DNA from: an uncultured Bacteroidia bacterium
GTDB taxonomy: Bacteria > Bacteroidota > Bacteroidia > J057 > CALDDN01
DNA: 49,969 bases
Direction: 5' to 3'
NCBI GenBank assembly: GCA_937936615.1
Contig: CALDDN010000029.1
Coordinates: 1-49,969, forward strand
Shown here: positions 39,862 to 49,147 of the stretch, one piece after another
Numbering within the stretch: position 1 is the first letter of the stretch
Layout of the letters: the number at the start of each line of letters is the position of its first letter
Position numbers and translations under genes: made by a program
The notes under the pieces: model-generated
What the model was told of the DNA's origin: nothing
Database searches by the model: none
Seen by the model: only the letters and a program-made list of their open reading frames with translations

Positions 39862-42606
39862 ATGCGCATTGGCATCCTCATGGGCGGACCTTCGCGCGAA
39901 CGCGAGATCGCCTTCGCCGGCGGGCGTACCGTCTTCGACAACCTCGACCGGAGCCGCTTTACACCCGTTCCCCTGCTGGTCGACGGTCTGGGGGGCATCG
40001 TCCTGCTCGACTGGCCGTACCTCTACCGCGGCACCCTGCGCGATTTTTTCCCGCCGCCCCACCTGCTGGGGCAGCCCCCCTACCCCGCGCACATCGACCA
40101 GCTCGGCCCCCTCGACCCCGACCGGCTGGCCGCCGCCCGCCACCAGATCGGTGCTCCAATCGATCCAGCTGAGCTGCCGCTGGTCTGCGACCTTATTTTT
40201 ACCACGCTGCACGGCCCCTGGGGCGAGGACGGAACGCTGCAGGGGCTGTGTCAGTGGCTGGGCTTGCCCTATACGGGCGCGGGCATCGCCGGCTCGGCCC
40301 TGGGCATCGACAAAATCGCCCAACGCCGCTGGATGCAGCAGGCGGGCTTCCCCAGCCCGCGCTTTCTGGTCCTCGACCGCGCGGCAGCCTGCAGCCCCCA
40401 GGCCGCCGATCAGATCGCCCGCGAAGTGGGCTTCCCGTGCGTCGTCAAGCACCCCACCCAGGGTTCAAGCATTGGCGTGGCACTGGCCCACACCGCCGCC
40501 GACCTGCCCGACGCCCTGGATGCCGCCTTCCTGCGCCGACGTCTCGACCCGACCGCCTGGCGCAGCCGCACGCCCGCCGACCGCTTCGCCGAGCTGCAAC
40601 GCCTGACCGACCTGCGCTACGAGGTGGGCCTGCCCGCCTGGGCCGAGTGGGCCGACGGCCGCCGCCAGCCCGTCGAAAGCCCCCACGCCCTGGCCGCGCT
40701 CCTCGACTCCGAAACCGAAGCCTTCGAGCTGGTGGCTCTCGATGCCCCCGATGCCGTACTCGTCGAAGAGTTCATTCCGGGCGACGAGTTTTCGGTCATT
40801 GTCCTCGAAACGCCCGAGGGGCGGCCGCTGGCCCTGCCGCCCACGCGCATCCAGAAAAGCGGCCCCGTTTTCGATTACCGCGGCAAATACCTGGCGGGTG
40901 CCGCCAGCAAGCAGACCCCCATGCCCGCCCCGTCCGAAACGATGGCCCACCTCCTGCGTCTGGCCGAAGAACTGCAGCAGGCGGGCGATTTCGGCCCCTG
41001 TGCCCGCCTCGACGGCATCCTCGGTGCCGACGGCGTACCCTATTTCAACGACCCGAACACCACCTCGGGCATGCTACCCAGTTCGTTTCTGTTTCATCAG
41101 GCCGCTGAGGTAGGGCTGTCGCCTACGGCCCTGCTGACCTGCATCATCGAGCAGTCGCTGCGGCAGCGGCGGCGCAGCCCCACGACCCGCCCCCGTGCCG
41201 AAGCCCTGCTCGAACAAATCGGGAAGACTTTGAGCCACTGCGACGAAACGGACACCCGCCGCCAGCGGGTGGGGGTCGTGCTGGGGGGCTTCTCCACCGA
41301 GCGGCATATTGCCGTCGAAAGCGGACGCAACGCCTGGCAAAAACTCCTGAGCAGCGAAGCCTACGAACCGGTGCCGCTCTTCCTGCTCGATCATCGCCTG
41401 CTCTACCTGCCCCAGAAAGCCGCTCTGGGCCTCAAAGAAAGCGACCCGCCTTTCGGCCTCTGGGAACTGCCGCTGCCGCTGCTGCTCAAGGACAACGCCG
41501 ACGACATTGCCCGCCAGGTGGCCGCAAGCATTGGCACGCCGCACGAACGGCGCGGACCCCTGGCCCAACAGTACGAGCGGGCCGCGCCCCTGCGCGACCG
41601 CTACGCTACAGCGCAGACCGAAACACCCCGATTCATCCCGTTTTCGGAGCTGGCGCGGCATGTCGATCTGATTTTCAACACGGCTCACGGACGGCCGGGC
41701 GAGGATGGAACCCTGGCGGCAATCTTCGAGGAACTGGGCCTGCCGCACAACGGCTGCGATCCCGCCGCCGCGAGCCTCACGATGGACAAGGCCGCTACCA
41801 ACGCCGCCCTCGATGCCCTGGGCTTCCGAACGCCCCGCCGCCGGCTGCTCTGCGCCGACGAGTGGACAGGACGGCTGACCGAATCGCTGCTTCAGGGTCT
41901 GACCCGAATCGCGGATGGCGAACTGCAGCCCTGGCTCGTAGCCAAACCCAACGACGAGGGCTGCAGCAGTGCCGTCCGCCGCCTCCAAAGCCCGCAAGCT
42001 TTGGAGGCTTACTTGCGACTGGCCTTCCGCCAGGCCCATGCCTGGGACGAACGGCTGGCCCAGTTGCTGGATGTGCGCTCGCCCCTCGATTTTCCGGCCA
42101 AAGACGAGGTGCTGCTCGAAGAATGGATTGGGCCGCAGGCGGGCAGCCGGCTCATGGAAATCACCGTCGGGTTTTACACCGAGTATGCGCCCGATGGCGG
42201 GGTAGTCTGGCAGGTCTTTGAACCCAGTCAAACGGAGGCGCAGCTGGGTCTGCTGACGCTGGAAGAAAAGTTTCTGGCAGGCGAGGGCCTCAACCGCACC
42301 CCCGCGCCTTTTGCCGACGACCCCGACACGCAGGAGCGCATATCGGCGGGCATCCGCAGCCAGGTGGCAGCGGCCATGCAGGGTCTCGGGGTTACGGGCT
42401 ATGGGCGGGTGGATGCGTTTGTGCGCATCGATGCCGGTTTCAATTTTGAATTGATTTTCATCGAAGTCAATACCTTGCCCGGTTTCACCCCTGCGACGGT
42501 GCTCTTTCATCAGGCGGCACGGGCCGGTCTGCGTCCCATCGACCTGATGGAGAAAATCCTTAGTTTTGGCCGTGAACGGGCGGCCCGTCAGCAGGCCCTG
42601 GCCTGA
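39862..42606 (+). CDS. ddl: Tandem fused D-alanine--D-alanine ligase (two ATP-grasp Ddl domains)
   Basis: 914 aa. Domain 1: MRIGILMGGPSREREIAF, LHGPWGEDGTLQGLCQWLGLPYTGAG, VVKHPTQGSSIGV, FDYRGKY, NDPNTTSGMLPSS. Domain 2 from about 41258: RVGVVLGGFSTERHIAVESG, AHGRPGEDGTLAAIFEELGLPHNG, EVNTLPGFTPATVLFHQA. Confidence 0.92.
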   Translation: MRIGILMGGPSREREIAFAGGRTVFDNLDRSRFTPVPLLVDGLGGIVLLDWPYLYRGTLRDFFPPPHLLGQPPYPAHIDQLGPLDPDRLAAARHQIGAPIDPAELPLVCDLIFTTLHGPWGEDGTLQGLCQWLGLPYTGAGIAGSALGIDKIAQRRWMQQAGFPSPRFLVLDRAAACSPQAADQIAREVGFPCVVKHPTQGSSIGVALAHTAADLPDALDAAFLRRRLDPTAWRSRTPADRFAELQRLTDLRYEVGLPAWAEWADGRRQPVESPHALAALLDSETEAFELVALDAPDAVLVEEFIPGDEFSVIVLETPEGRPLALPPTRIQKSGPVFDYRGKYLAGAASKQTPMPAPSETMAHLLRLAEELQQAGDFGPCARLDGILGADGVPYFNDPNTTSGMLPSSFLFHQAAEVGLSPTALLTCIIEQSLRQRRRSPTTRPRAEALLEQIGKTLSHCDETDTRRQRVGVVLGGFSTERHIAVESGRNAWQKLLSSEAYEPVPLFLLDHRLLYLPQKAALGLKESDPPFGLWELPLPLLLKDNADDIARQVAASIGTPHERRGPLAQQYERAAPLRDRYATAQTETPRFIPFSELARHVDLIFNTAHGRPGEDGTLAAIFEELGLPHNGCDPAAASLTMDKAATNAALDALGFRTPRRRLLCADEWTGRLTESLLQGLTRIADGELQPWLVAKPNDEGCSSAVRRLQSPQALEAYLRLAFRQAHAWDERLAQLLDVRSPLDFPAKDEVLLEEWIGPQAGSRLMEITVGFYTEYAPDGGVVWQVFEPSQTEAQLGLLTLEEKFLAGEGLNRTPAPFADDPDTQERISAGIRSQVAAAMQGLGVTGYGRVDAFVRIDAGFNFELIFIEVNTLPGFTPATVLFHQAARAGLRPIDLMEKILSFGRERAARQQALA

Positions 42607-42628: not shown

Positions 42629-43552
42629 ATGTCAGCGACAAATTACGAAAGCGATCCCTACGCCCCCGAACCACGAGCCACCCTGCGGCAGTATCTGGTG
42701 AGTACGGAATTCCTCCTCACGCTGGGTAGTCTGTTTTTTGGGGGGGTGCTGCTGGTGCTGCTGCTCTTTTACGTGATCCTGCCCTGGATGACCAACCACA
42801 ACAAGACGGTCGATGTACCCGACGTTACGTCCGATCCGCTGAAAAAACGCTACGTCAAGGTTGACGAGGCGTTTGCCGACCTCGAACGGGCAGGACTGCA
42901 TCCGGTGGTCAACGACTCGCAATACTACCGCGACCTGCCCCCGCTGTGCGTCATCCGGCAGGAACCGATAGGGCTGAGTATCGTCAAACCGGGACGTACG
43001 GTCTATCTGGTCGTCAACAAGCGCACGCCACCCGCCGTCAAAGTACCCGATGTGGTCGATATCAACCTCGATCAGGCCCGCAGCCTGCTCGAAAACTGGA
43101 AGTTGAAGGTGGGCCGCCTGACCTACACCCAGGGCGAATACCCCAACCTGGTACTCAAAGCCCTGTACCGCGGACGCGAACTGGAGAAATTCGAGGAAGT
43201 ACCCGAAGGGTCGGCCATCGATCTGGTAGTCAGCCGGGGGCATGGCCCCACCCGCGTGGAACTGCCCAACCTGCTGGGGCTTGAGCTTCAGCAGGCCGTT
43301 TCGCGGCTCAACCTGCTGGGCCTGCGGGCCAGCGTCAGCTACGATGAAGCCTCCAGAAAACCCGTAGGCACGGTAGTCAACCAGTCGCCCCGCGCCGGCT
43401 CGCAGGACTCGGTATTCCAGAATGTGGTGGTGTATCTGACGGTGGCTGGCAGCCCCGATGCCGCCATCGAAGGCCCTTCCACCAGCGGTACTGCCGATTC
43501 GTCGGCAGCTAAAACCAAAAAGCCCGCCAACACCCGCGAGAGAAATGACTAA
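42629..43552 (+). CDS. Membrane-anchored PASTA-domain protein
   Basis: N-terminal TM helix then three PASTA-like units (VDVPDVTSDPLKKRYVKVDEAFADLERAGL, VKVPDVVDINLDQARSLLENWKLKVG, VELPNLLGLELQQAVSRLNLLGLRA). Follows ddl. Confidence 0.92.
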   Translation: MSATNYESDPYAPEPRATLRQYLVSTEFLLTLGSLFFGGVLLVLLLFYVILPWMTNHNKTVDVPDVTSDPLKKRYVKVDEAFADLERAGLHPVVNDSQYYRDLPPLCVIRQEPIGLSIVKPGRTVYLVVNKRTPPAVKVPDVVDINLDQARSLLENWKLKVGRLTYTQGEYPNLVLKALYRGRELEKFEEVPEGSAIDLVVSRGHGPTRVELPNLLGLELQQAVSRLNLLGLRASVSYDEASRKPVGTVVNQSPRAGSQDSVFQNVVVYLTVAGSPDAAIEGPSTSGTADSSAAKTKKPANTRERND

Positions 43553-45590
43553 AAAGGCCGGTCTGGTCGTTAGCTGGGCAATGATCCGCCGTGGAACCGC
43601 GCTACTGATTGGCTGGCTCGCGTGCCTGCACGTGCTTCAGGCTCAGGAGGTCTGGCGGCATCGCAATCAGGCATTGATTCAGGATTCGGCTACTTCTTTC
43701 TTTTATTTTTCAAAAAATAATGATAGTGAATTTTTGAAAGAAAAAAGAAATGAAAATCAGGCACACAAGCAAGCCACCGGCGAGCCGCGGACGCTGACCC
43801 TGCCGTTTTTCGAGGATTTCAACCTGGGCCACAGCGGGCCGCTCGACGATGCCCGCCGCTTCGTTCCCGACACGCTGCGCTGGTTCAGCAACCGCGGCGT
43901 GCAGCTCAACCGCTCGAGCGCCATCGATCCGCCCGATTTCGGGGTCGCGGTTTTCGACGGTGCGGCCGACGACGGACGCGGCTGGCTGCTGCTGCCCATC
44001 GCCGTTACCGACGGGGCCGACACGCTGACCTCGCACGCCTTCGATCTGCGATCGTATGCGCTGGCCGACAGCCTGCGCCTGAGCTTCTGGTACCAGGGGG
44101 GCGGACGCATGGAACGACCCGATACGGTCGATTCGCTGATCCTCGAATTTCGCGATTCCGTGGGCGACTTCCGGCGGGTCTGGGCCAGTGCCGAGGTCGA
44201 TACCAGCCGCTTTCGCTATGCATCCATTCCCCTGGAAGACAGCCTTTTTCTGCACAGGCGATTCCAGTTTCGGCTGCGCAACATCGCCACGCGCAACGGC
44301 CCCTTCGACCAGTGGTTTGTGGATCACATCTGGCTGGCGGCCGGTCGGAGCGCGGGCGACAGCCTGCCGGTCGATCGGGCGGTCGTGGGACTGAAACGCG
44401 GCCTGCTCTGGCCCTACACAGCCTTGCCGCGGCGGGTGCTCAACGGCCTGATGTACAACAAGGATTCGATCGTAGTAGAGCTGCGCTCGACCGACAGCCT
44501 GGAACAGAACTCGCGTTTGCACGTCATGCTCAGCGACCCTACGGGAGGCGTGGGCCTCATTGATGTGCGACGCGACAGCGTGGTTTTGCCGCCCCTGGCC
44601 GACCAACAAAAGGCCGTGCGCTTCGACGATCCCACGCGCTGGACCTATGCCCAGAACAGCATGCTGCGCCACACCGCCTACCTCGATTCCTCGGAGCGCG
44701 ACCGCTACCGGCGCAACGACACGCTGCGGCTCGATTTTCGGGCCGATACCCTCTATGCCCTCGACGATGGCGAGGCCGAAAGCTGGTACGGGGTAACCAA
44801 TCCGGGGGCACCCTTCGCCCAGATGTTTTACTGCGAGCAGCCCGAACGCCTGCAGGCGGTTTGGCTCACGTTCGTACCCCGCGAGACGGTCTACGATACG
44901 GCCCTGACCTTCAACCTGGGCATCTGGTCGTTTCGGGTCGATACCATCCGCAAGGTGGGGGTCTTCCTGCGGGATTCCATTTTTCTGGATACGATTATTA
45001 CGCCGGTCTATCTGTCTGGCATTGAAGATACGGTACGCTACGGGCCGGTGCCCAACTTCTTCCGCCGCTATGCCTTCGATGCGGCAGCTGTGGCCGATGG
45101 CCTGACTACGGTACAGGGTTATTTTCTGGTGGGGCTGATCCAGCGGCAGGGCATTCCCATCGGGGTCGGCTACGACCTGAATGCCAACAGTGCACAACGG
45201 ATCGTCTTTCAGGTGCGGCCCCAGGTGTGGGCGGCAACCGCCGGCACGGGTACGCTCATGATCCGGCCCGAGGTGGCCAACGCCTACCCCCGGCGCGAAC
45301 CGCCGGCCCGCACCACCTCGGGCGGTCTGCGCATCTACCCCAACCCCGTACGAGGCTCGCGGCTGAGTCTGGACCAGAGCACGGGCGAGGCCCTCAACGG
45401 GGTGCGCTGGCAGCTGCTCGACATTACCGGGCGCACGGTGGGGGACGGAACGGCTCCGCGCTGGACCTGGCCTCAAACCCTCGACCTGGGCACCGCGCCA
45501 CCGGCGGGGGTTTACGTGCTTCGGGTGCAAGGTACCACGGATTCAGGGTTTTATAACGCATGGACAACGCGGCTGCTTTTCGTAGACTGA
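43545..45590 (+). CDS. Secreted protein with type A T9SS C-terminal sorting domain
   Basis: Signal peptide-like MIRRGTALLIGWLACLHVLQAQ; C-terminal GGLRIYPNPVRGSRLSLD...WQLLDITGRTV...PAGVYVLRV. Overlaps the PASTA gene by 8 bp. Confidence 0.87.
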   Translation: MTKKAGLVVSWAMIRRGTALLIGWLACLHVLQAQEVWRHRNQALIQDSATSFFYFSKNNDSEFLKEKRNENQAHKQATGEPRTLTLPFFEDFNLGHSGPLDDARRFVPDTLRWFSNRGVQLNRSSAIDPPDFGVAVFDGAADDGRGWLLLPIAVTDGADTLTSHAFDLRSYALADSLRLSFWYQGGGRMERPDTVDSLILEFRDSVGDFRRVWASAEVDTSRFRYASIPLEDSLFLHRRFQFRLRNIATRNGPFDQWFVDHIWLAAGRSAGDSLPVDRAVVGLKRGLLWPYTALPRRVLNGLMYNKDSIVVELRSTDSLEQNSRLHVMLSDPTGGVGLIDVRRDSVVLPPLADQQKAVRFDDPTRWTYAQNSMLRHTAYLDSSERDRYRRNDTLRLDFRADTLYALDDGEAESWYGVTNPGAPFAQMFYCEQPERLQAVWLTFVPRETVYDTALTFNLGIWSFRVDTIRKVGVFLRDSIFLDTIITPVYLSGIEDTVRYGPVPNFFRRYAFDAAAVADGLTTVQGYFLVGLIQRQGIPIGVGYDLNANSAQRIVFQVRPQVWAATAGTGTLMIRPEVANAYPRREPPARTTSGGLRIYPNPVRGSRLSLDQSTGEALNGVRWQLLDITGRTVGDGTAPRWTWPQTLDLGTAPPAGVYVLRVQGTTDSGFYNAWTTRLLFVD

Positions 45591-46303
45591 CCTCTGTCGA
45601 GGTGCTGGCCATCGGGGTTCATCCCGATGATGTGGAACTGGGCTGCGGGGGCACGCTGCTCAAGCTGCGGGCGGCAGGCCGGTCGGTGGCCATCGTGGAC
45701 CTGACGCGGGGCGAACTGGGTACACGGGGTACGCCCGAACTGCGCCTGCAGGAAGCAGCGGAAGCGGCCCGAATTCTGGGAATCGAACAGCGGCTCAACC
45801 TGGGCCTGCGCGACGGCTTTATCGGTGAGAGTGAGGCCGAGGTGCGGGCGGTGATCGGGGCGTTGCGGGCCTTTCGCCCGCGGGTGGTGCTGGCCAACGC
45901 ACTGGAAGACCGCCACCCTGACCACGGTCAGGCGGCGGCACTGGTGCGGCGGGCGTGCTTCCTGAGCGGCCTGCGGCGCATCGAGACGGCAGCCGGCGGC
46001 GAGGTACAGGCCCCCTGGCGGCCCGATCACCTGTACTGCTACATTCAGGATCGGTGGCTGCAGCCGAGCTTCGTAGTCGATATTTCGAGCCATTTTGAAA
46101 GAAAGCTGGACGCGGTGCGGGCGTTCCGGTCGCAGTTTTACGACCCGCAGAGCCAGGAACCGGAAACCTATATATCCTCACTGGCTTTTGGGGAGTACCA
46201 CCGTGCGCGGGCGCGGGAAATGGGTCATTTCATCGGGGCGGCCTACGGCGAGGGCTTTGTGGCGGGTGGGCCGCTGGTGTCGGAATTGCTGCCCGGGCTG
46301 TAA
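45560..46303 (+). CDS. bshB1: Bacillithiol biosynthesis deacetylase BshB1 (PIG-L family)
   Basis: VLAIGVHPDDVELGCGGTLLKL, TRGELGTRGTPELRLQEAAEAARILG, ANALEDRHPDHGQAAALVRRACFLSGL. Overlaps the preceding gene by 31 bp. Confidence 0.92.
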   Translation: MDNAAAFRRLTSVEVLAIGVHPDDVELGCGGTLLKLRAAGRSVAIVDLTRGELGTRGTPELRLQEAAEAARILGIEQRLNLGLRDGFIGESEAEVRAVIGALRAFRPRVVLANALEDRHPDHGQAAALVRRACFLSGLRRIETAAGGEVQAPWRPDHLYCYIQDRWLQPSFVVDISSHFERKLDAVRAFRSQFYDPQSQEPETYISSLAFGEYHRARAREMGHFIGAAYGEGFVAGGPLVSELLPGL

Positions 46304-47192: not shown

Positions 47193-48980
47193 TCAGAACC
47201 GGATGCCGATAACGGTAATGTCGTCGGTCTGCTCGCGGTCGCCGCGCCAGTGGCGCAATTCGGCATCGAGCAACATGGTCTGGTGCTCCATGTCTTTGGT
47301 GTGGATGTCGAGCAGGAACTGGTAGAAGCGTTTCATGAGGTACTTTTTGTTCAGCTCGTGGCCGATCTGGTCGGCAAAGCCGTCCGAAAAGATATAGACG
47401 CTGTCGCCCGACAGCACCTCGAAGCTGTGGTTGGTGTAGTGGCGCGCGTCTTCCTCCTGATCGCCGCCGATGCCGTAGCGGTCGCCTTTCATCTCGATGA
47501 TCTCGTTGTCGCGGATGAGCAGCAGCGAGCGGTTGGCACCGGCAAACTGGAGTTTGTTGCGTTTGACGTCGAGCTGACAAAGGGCAATGTCGAGGCCGTC
47601 TTTGTTGGCATTCTGGCTGTTCTCCTGCTGCAGTGCCACGCGGGTACGCAGGTGCAGCTGGTAGAGTATTTCGTTGGGCTTGAAGATGCCCTCCAGCTCG
47701 ACGATCTGCTTGAGCAGGGTATTGGCCATCACGTTCATGAAGGCCCCCGGCACGCCGTGACCCGTGCAGTCGCCGCAGGCTAGAATCGACTTACTGAGCC
47801 GCCGGCTGAACCAGTAGAAATCGCCACTGACGATGTCCTTGGGCCGGAAATAGACAAAGGAATTGGGGTAGACCGAGCGGATGTCGCTGAGCTTGGGCAG
47901 AATGGCATCCTGAATGCGCTTGGCGTACTGGATGCTGGCGATGATGTCGTTGTTCTTGTCCTGGATTTCGTCGCGCACACGCTCGATCTCGGCCTTCTGG
48001 CTCATGACCTCGCGGGTGCGTTCCAGTACTTTCTGCTCGAGTTCGCCATAGAAGCGGGCGTTCTGGATGGCGATGGCTGCCGGAGCCGAAAGCAGGCGGA
48101 AAAGCTCGATGTGGTAGGCCGAGAAGGCATCGGGCTTCTGGTTGTTTTCCAGGTAGAGCAGGCCGTGAATCATCCCCTGATAGATCAGAGGGGTGCACAG
48201 CAGCGAGCGGCAGCCCATTTTGCGAATGAAGGGGTGTTTGGCAAACAGCCCTTCGTTCATGGCATCGGCCAGGATGACGTTATCGCTGGTCTTGCGGGCG
48301 TATTCGACGATGGCCGGGCATACGGGCGAAAAGTCGTTGACTTCGGTCGAGCGAATGGTTGTTTCGTAGGCTCCTGCGTGGCCTTCGGCTTCGATGCACA
48401 GGGCACCGTCGGATTCGCGCACCAGAATGATGTAGCCATTGATGGCATCGGCGTTCTCGATGACGATGCGCATGAGTTTGTGCAGCAGCTTGTTCAGGTT
48501 ACGCTCACCGATGAGGGTCATCGAGGCGCGGTGCAGTTCGGTGAGCACCCGCGATTTGAAGAGCAGTTCGAGCCGCTGGTTGTAAAAGCGGGCTACCTCG
48601 CGCAGGGCCGCGCGGTAGTCCGGCCAGTCGATGGGTTTATAGAAGATGCGGTGCAGGCGGGCCGCTTCGAGGGTGGCTTCCGCGGGCAGGCGGTCGGCAC
48701 TGGCCACGAGCACGCGCATGGCGTGGGGCCAGCGTTCGTAGGAGCGGACCAGCGATTCGGCCCCGGGAATGTCGGTCAGGTCCTGATCGGCAATGAAGAG
48801 GGCGATCTCCTGGCTCTCGGCCACGAGGCGGTCGAGGGCCTTGAGGCCCTCCTCGGCCCGCAGGCCCGTAACGAGTTCGTAGTCGGGCAGGATTTGGGCC
48901 GTCTGGTCGGCGATTTCACGTAGCGACTCGCGGTCGCTCATCAGGCAGATGACGTAGGGCTTGGCCGAAGTGAAGATCAT
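47193..48980 (-). CDS. REC-like - GAF - coiled coil - SpoIIE/PP2C phosphatase
   Basis: N-terminal receiver-like segment (ICLMSDRESLREIADQTAQILPDYEL...FIADQDLTDIPG...LVASAD...FYKPID), GAF, then FRPKDIVSGDFYWF...ILACGDCTGHGVPGAFMNVMANTLL...EQTDDITVIGIRF. Start set at MIFTSAKPYVIC (48980). Confidence 0.92.
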   Translation of the reverse strand: MIFTSAKPYVICLMSDRESLREIADQTAQILPDYELVTGLRAEEGLKALDRLVAESQEIALFIADQDLTDIPGAESLVRSYERWPHAMRVLVASADRLPAEATLEAARLHRIFYKPIDWPDYRAALREVARFYNQRLELLFKSRVLTELHRASMTLIGERNLNKLLHKLMRIVIENADAINGYIILVRESDGALCIEAEGHAGAYETTIRSTEVNDFSPVCPAIVEYARKTSDNVILADAMNEGLFAKHPFIRKMGCRSLLCTPLIYQGMIHGLLYLENNQKPDAFSAYHIELFRLLSAPAAIAIQNARFYGELEQKVLERTREVMSQKAEIERVRDEIQDKNNDIIASIQYAKRIQDAILPKLSDIRSVYPNSFVYFRPKDIVSGDFYWFSRRLSKSILACGDCTGHGVPGAFMNVMANTLLKQIVELEGIFKPNEILYQLHLRTRVALQQENSQNANKDGLDIALCQLDVKRNKLQFAGANRSLLLIRDNEIIEMKGDRYGIGGDQEEDARHYTNHSFEVLSGDSVYIFSDGFADQIGHELNKKYLMKRFYQFLLDIHTKDMEHQTMLLDAELRHWRGDREQTDDITVIGIRF

Positions 48981-49147
48981 CCGAGAGCAGGGCGGGCACC
49001 GTCGGGGTTCCCAATTGCGGCTCAAATTAGCAAATAAACCGCTGTCGCTGGCCCTTTTCCTGCCCGAAGTCCCAGCTGCCGAAAAGGGGTCTCACGATTC
49101 ACGGCTTTTGAGCATCTTGCACCTTTGTCCCAATCTGACGAAGCACC

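Follow-up and report, generated by a model that had tools for sequence, protein, structure and literature searches.

A two-unit D-alanine–D-alanine ligase of Bacteroidota with two conserved and different active sites

Why would a bacterium carry two D-alanine–D-alanine ligase (Ddl) units in one polypeptide, and do both of them act as enzymes? Ddl, an essential enzyme, is the target of the drug D-cycloserine, and the two sites of its homodimer are generally regarded as equal. The question is raised by a gene in a stretch of 49,969 nucleotides from an uncultured Bacteroidia bacterium (hereafter the window), for which an original prediction made from the letters alone proposed two complete Ddl units in a 914-aa open reading frame. 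This layout is borne out by the translated frame (39862..42606, +), by 50 full-length orthologues and by doubled Pfam domains far over their cut-offs, PF01820 matching twice (127 bits, cut-off 34.6) and PF07478 repeatedly (133.5 bits, cut-off 24). The N-terminal unit (aa 1–436, 39862..41169, +) has a Y-type active site with Asp in place of E270, as seen by alignment to Escherichia coli DdlB and 59 single Ddls and in an AlphaFold model, whose secondary structure also delimits a linker helix joining the units (aa 443–466, 41188..41259, +). The C-terminal unit (aa 467–914, 41260..42603, +) has an F-type active site with the changes S150C, Y216F and S281T, and was defined by alignment and by the NCBIfam and PDB matches of the C half alone. 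For the full tandem protein, AlphaFold2 (28-row alignment) reached a pLDDT of 87.5 and a pTM of 0.87, so that the fold of both halves and their mutual arrangement are predicted confidently; the closest solved folds are Ddl enzymes, including 1ehi (the D-Ala-D-Lac ligase LmDdl2) and 1iow (DdlB Y216F).

Could the fusion be an artefact of assembly or a frameshift? This was ruled out by the 50 intact full-length orthologues (duplicates removed, all from Bacteroidota, 36–48% identity), and since the layout and the half-specific residues are identical in all of them, the tandem arrangement is not due to chance. Full-length tandem matches were found in 26 of the 60 relatives searched and in 18 of 38 families sampled within the class, including six of the seven other sampled families of the window's own order, the exception (family f4) having a single Ddl. 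A scan of a genome collection returned at least 31 tandem loci, all of them in Bacteroidota among the matches listed, where the cultured species Raineya orbicola (strain SPSPC-11, NZ_NKXO01000023.1) also appears as a carrier, and no viral copy was confirmed in a viral contig collection. When the phylum is sampled evenly across species (118 genomes), the tandem is rare, with one genome besides the window's own, presumably because species-rich families with a single Ddl dominate such a sample. By its distribution and alignment, the tandem Ddl is an old, conserved family.

Carriers of the tandem appear to have no other Ddl. When Ddls were counted per genome through PF01820, the Ddl-specific N-terminal domain, all 28 tandem genomes gave exactly two matches, both within the tandem protein, and the eight single-Ddl genomes gave one match each; no separate standard Ddl was thus detected by this search in any of the 28. 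Most genomes in this count are at least 92% complete, and for the window's own genome (57%) the case rests on its relatives. Two weak extra matches in the latter (contigs C61 and C45) were rejected as Ddls, as they are devoid of the Ddl N-terminal domain. From what is known of the pathway, an enzyme that is the only Ddl in 28 of 28 genomes must provide the essential D-Ala-D-Ala activity.

By maximum likelihood, N halves and C halves fall into separate clades (support 100/99 and 100/100, respectively), and these two clades group together apart from all single Ddls (99/95). A single internal duplication that predates the split of the families accounts for this topology. A shared innovation also supports this origin: an F-H-Q motif is present in both halves (41092–41100 in N, 42505–42513 in C), at a place where single Ddls have a conserved proline (DdlB P284). 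The stem branch measures 1.75 for the C half vs 0.79 for the N half, and the C half, as these branches read, evolved fast at first and then froze. Family f4 is of a different kind, as its single Ddls (L117, L118, L119 and L122, from the window's order) group with enzymes of Actinomycetota and Chloroflexota, which suggests that the tandem was replaced there by a horizontally transferred single Ddl. Such a replacement would fit the view that an ordinary Ddl is able to take over the essential role of the tandem.

The genomic neighbourhood is an ordinary one. About 60 bp lie between the start of the tandem gene and a divergent glycosyltransferase gene, and downstream, after a gap of 22 bp, comes a gene for a PASTA-domain protein (42629..43552, +; PF03793), the usual ddl neighbour in Bacteroidota; since this order is common to many tandem and single ddl loci, the fusion occupies the phylum's ordinary ddl locus. 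The stretch 42629–46303 is likely an operon, comprising the PASTA-domain protein, a large secreted-looking protein with a C-terminal tail that by eye resembles type IX secretion signals, and a PIG-L-type deacetylase, and the same order recurs in locus L055. Farther along, 47193–49025 (−) holds a candidate, also picked by eye, for a GAF-type sensor and a SpoIIE-like phosphatase in one protein.

What do the two active sites look like? Every active-site position was mapped to the numbering of E. coli DdlB, and the comparison set of 59 single Ddls covers Bacteroidota and other phyla. The motifs first read from the sequence are all in place: the two halves share HGxxGEDG, the N half has FDYRGKY, QGSSIGV and DPNTTSG, and the C half has EVNTLPGFT and KPNDEGCSSAV. 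The N unit has HGPWGEDG (40210..40233, +; His117 = DdlB His63, in 50/50 orthologues), a glycine-rich loop KHPTQGSSIG (40447..40476, +; Lys196, Ser202 and Ser203 aligning with K144, S150 and S151), and an omega-loop DYRGKYLAG (40873..40899, +; Lys342 and Tyr343 = K215 and Y216, both 50/50). The N half thus has the canonical Tyr and Ser at the positions of the D-Ala1 triad, where the C half has Phe and Cys instead. Its Mg-ligand motif NDPNTTSGM (41047..41073, +) keeps Asn399 for N272 and has Asp397 for E270, in agreement with the Glu-to-Asp change proposed earlier; Asp is found here in 50/50 tandem N halves vs Glu in 59/59 single Ddls. This conservative substitution is the only N-half change among the invariant exceptions.

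The C half was initially described as lacking a recognisable omega-loop and as having a degenerate glycine-rich loop, and neither description survives alignment. Its N-terminal subdomain motif KDNADDI (41488..41508, +) is invariant among the tandem sequences and its HGRPGEDG motif (41686..41709, +) aligns His609 with His63. In the glycine-rich loop KPNDEGCSSA (41944..41973, +), Lys144 (Lys695), Gly149 and Ser151 (Ser702) are kept, the only change being Cys701 for Ser150 in 50/50 orthologues. An omega-loop is present (TLEEKFLAGEGLNRTP; EEKFLAG at 42262..42282, +), in which Lys803 corresponds to DdlB Lys215 and Phe804 replaces Tyr216, both 50/50. The combined Mg and acceptor motif EVNTLPGFTPAT (42463..42498, +) has Glu868 and Asn870 for E270 and N272, and Thr879 in place of S281, each again in 50/50. 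All three substitutions of the C half lie within the D-alanine pocket, and neither they nor E270D occur in any of the 59 single Ddls compared.

Both halves are otherwise highly conserved. Invariant in both across the 50 orthologues are E15, H63, K97, G149, S151, E180, E187, K215, R255, D257, N272 and G276, and K144 is Lys in all C halves and in 44 of the 50 N halves (Arg in the other six). Among 39 columns that are near-universal in single Ddls, 28 are kept by the N half and 29 by the C half, and in the C half four others are fixed for a different residue, the pocket residues accounting for three of them. Mean within-half identity (0.50 for N, 0.53 for C) indicates that constraint on the C half is no weaker than on the N half, and that the C half is not decaying. 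No ATP or Mg ligand is missing from either half, E270D in the N half being the only ligand change, and the complementary loss of active-site motifs assumed by the original prediction is not what is found; 'specialisation' should be the term for these two halves, not 'loss'. Evidence against a catalytic role, in the shape of a separate standard Ddl together with eroded ATP-binding residues in both halves, was also looked for, and no such Ddl was found in the 28 tandem genomes and the ATP-binding residues are retained. The broader proposal, that the fusion yields a pseudo-heterodimer or an enzyme of changed specificity, loses its basis in complementary loss, and is strengthened by the sole-Ddl status in 28/28 genomes, the invariant half-specific residues and the Phe of the C half.

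Taken together, the alignments and the tree show two Ddl units of single, evidently ancient origin, with both halves retained since. The reading that we favour, with a probability of roughly 55%, is that the tandem serves as the organism's D-Ala-D-Ala ligase and is a single asymmetric polypeptide with two sites, in which the C half would use ATP with an altered pocket. The two halves would pack like the usual Ddl homodimer, and the N half, with its canonical Tyr and Ser, would make the essential D-Ala-D-Ala. The C half would be a second ATP-using site whose acceptor or donor pocket has been changed by S150C, Y216F and S281T, and may either join D-Ala to different or wider partners, or tune the N half via the shared interface. 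E. coli DdlB altered at Y216 or S150 reportedly gains D-lactate-related ligase activity. In lactic acid bacteria, a single omega-loop residue, Tyr vs Phe, sets dipeptide vs depsipeptide activity, and the F261Y substitution in the Leuconostoc enzyme alters its ligase activity (PMC5996685). Given the changes at S150 and Y216, an altered acceptor is the leading inference for the C half, D-lactate itself not being proven; no substrate can be read with certainty from the three residues.

Alternatively, one half may be a pseudoenzyme, a single unit turning over while the other serves as an allosteric or structural stand-in for the second subunit of the homodimer. An asymmetry fixed across all orthologues, the long stem of the C half before it came under constraint, and the replacement of a Mg ligand in the N half could all be explained in this way. 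However, all other ATP and Mg ligands are kept by both halves, essentially in 50/50 sequences, while pseudo-ATP-grasp domains have usually lost theirs, and constraint is equal on both halves; we consider this explanation rather doubtful.

A bolder proposal assigns two definite specificities, with the N half making D-Ala-D-Ala and the C half joining D-Ala to another partner, for example D-lactate, a different D-hydroxy acid or a D-amino acid, and further holds that plants inherited the enzyme from Bacteroidota for plastid peptidoglycan; as a whole we regard it as unlikely. The F-type D-Ala-D-Lac ligases (Leuconostoc LmDdl2, lactobacilli) have Phe for the omega-loop Tyr like the tandem C half (PMC5996685), but they are single units of Gram-positives, and the tandem C half additionally carries S150C and S281T and is no nearer to D-Lac ligases by sequence or NCBIfam scores. 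D-Ala-D-Ala ligase is the top-scoring NCBIfam profile for both halves, and for the C half PRK01372 (D-Ala-D-Ala ligase) reaches 120.4 bits vs 65.7 bits for D_ala_D_lac, so that it is not classed as a D-Lac ligase. Genes for VanX-type dipeptidases (PF01427), which accompany van clusters and with which lactic acid bacteria dispense, are not associated with the tandem (10 of 26 tandem vs 9 of 21 single genomes), so that the genomes give no hint of a D-Ala-D-Lac pathway.

At the other extreme, both halves could be plain D-Ala-D-Ala ligases, the changes of the C half shifting kinetics only and the fusion amounting to a covalent ordinary dimer. The status of the tandem as sole Ddl, the best profile of each half and the conservative nature of S281T would suit this idea, as would the E. 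coli Y216F mutant, which is said to retain Ddl activity (work of the Walsh laboratory). Yet three joint pocket changes, each fixed in 50/50 tandems and seen in 0/59 single Ddls, make a changed role hard to avoid, and we consider this explanation improbable. Sequential sites, with an intermediate passed between the halves, are very improbable: the layout is that of the carbamoyl phosphate synthetase large subunit, in which two homologous, diverged ATP-grasp units share one chain, but that enzyme differs in reaction and architecture, the substrate pocket is complete in each half of the tandem (E15, R255, G276), there is no evidence of a tunnel or of channelling, and ordinary single Ddls finish the reaction alone.

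How does the asymmetric two-site ligase that we favour compare with known systems? Standard bacterial Ddls are single units (E. coli DdlB and DdlA, Thermus Ddl) which the tandem resembles in fold, in ATP and Mg ligands (save E270D in the N half), in the D-Ala1 glutamate and in Arg255, and from which it is set apart by its four half-specific substitutions. Chlamydiae also have Ddl in a cell-wall fusion, MurC-Ddl (NCBIfam PRK14573), with MurC as the partner rather than a second Ddl. A well-characterised tandem family had been named at the outset as what would remove novelty, and this caveat holds in part: plant DDL (Arabidopsis, moss) is a fusion of two Ddl enzymes throughout the plant lineage (PMC9954125), whereas no description of a bacterial Ddl-Ddl fusion was found in the open-access literature, where only plant DDL and MurC-Ddl fusions came up. 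As far as we found, the fixed asymmetry of a two-unit bacterial Ddl has gone unremarked.

The plant and algal enzymes, like the Bacteroidota tandem, hold two Ddl units in one polypeptide, but serve a eukaryotic plastid pathway, and the likeness is one of architecture taken from descriptions. As the Ddl of the moss Physcomitrium is reported to fall nearest by sequence to the Fibrobacteres-Chlorobi-Bacteroidetes group (PMC9434261), a common origin of the plant fusion and the Bacteroidota tandem is plausible. The tandem gives a whole clade, as its only Ddl, an enzyme with two permanently different sites, one of which bears the residue used for predicting D-lactate ligation. Might there be a second kind of cell-wall terminus in Gram-negative Bacteroidota, and might the two-unit Ddl of plants have descended from a Bacteroidota fusion?
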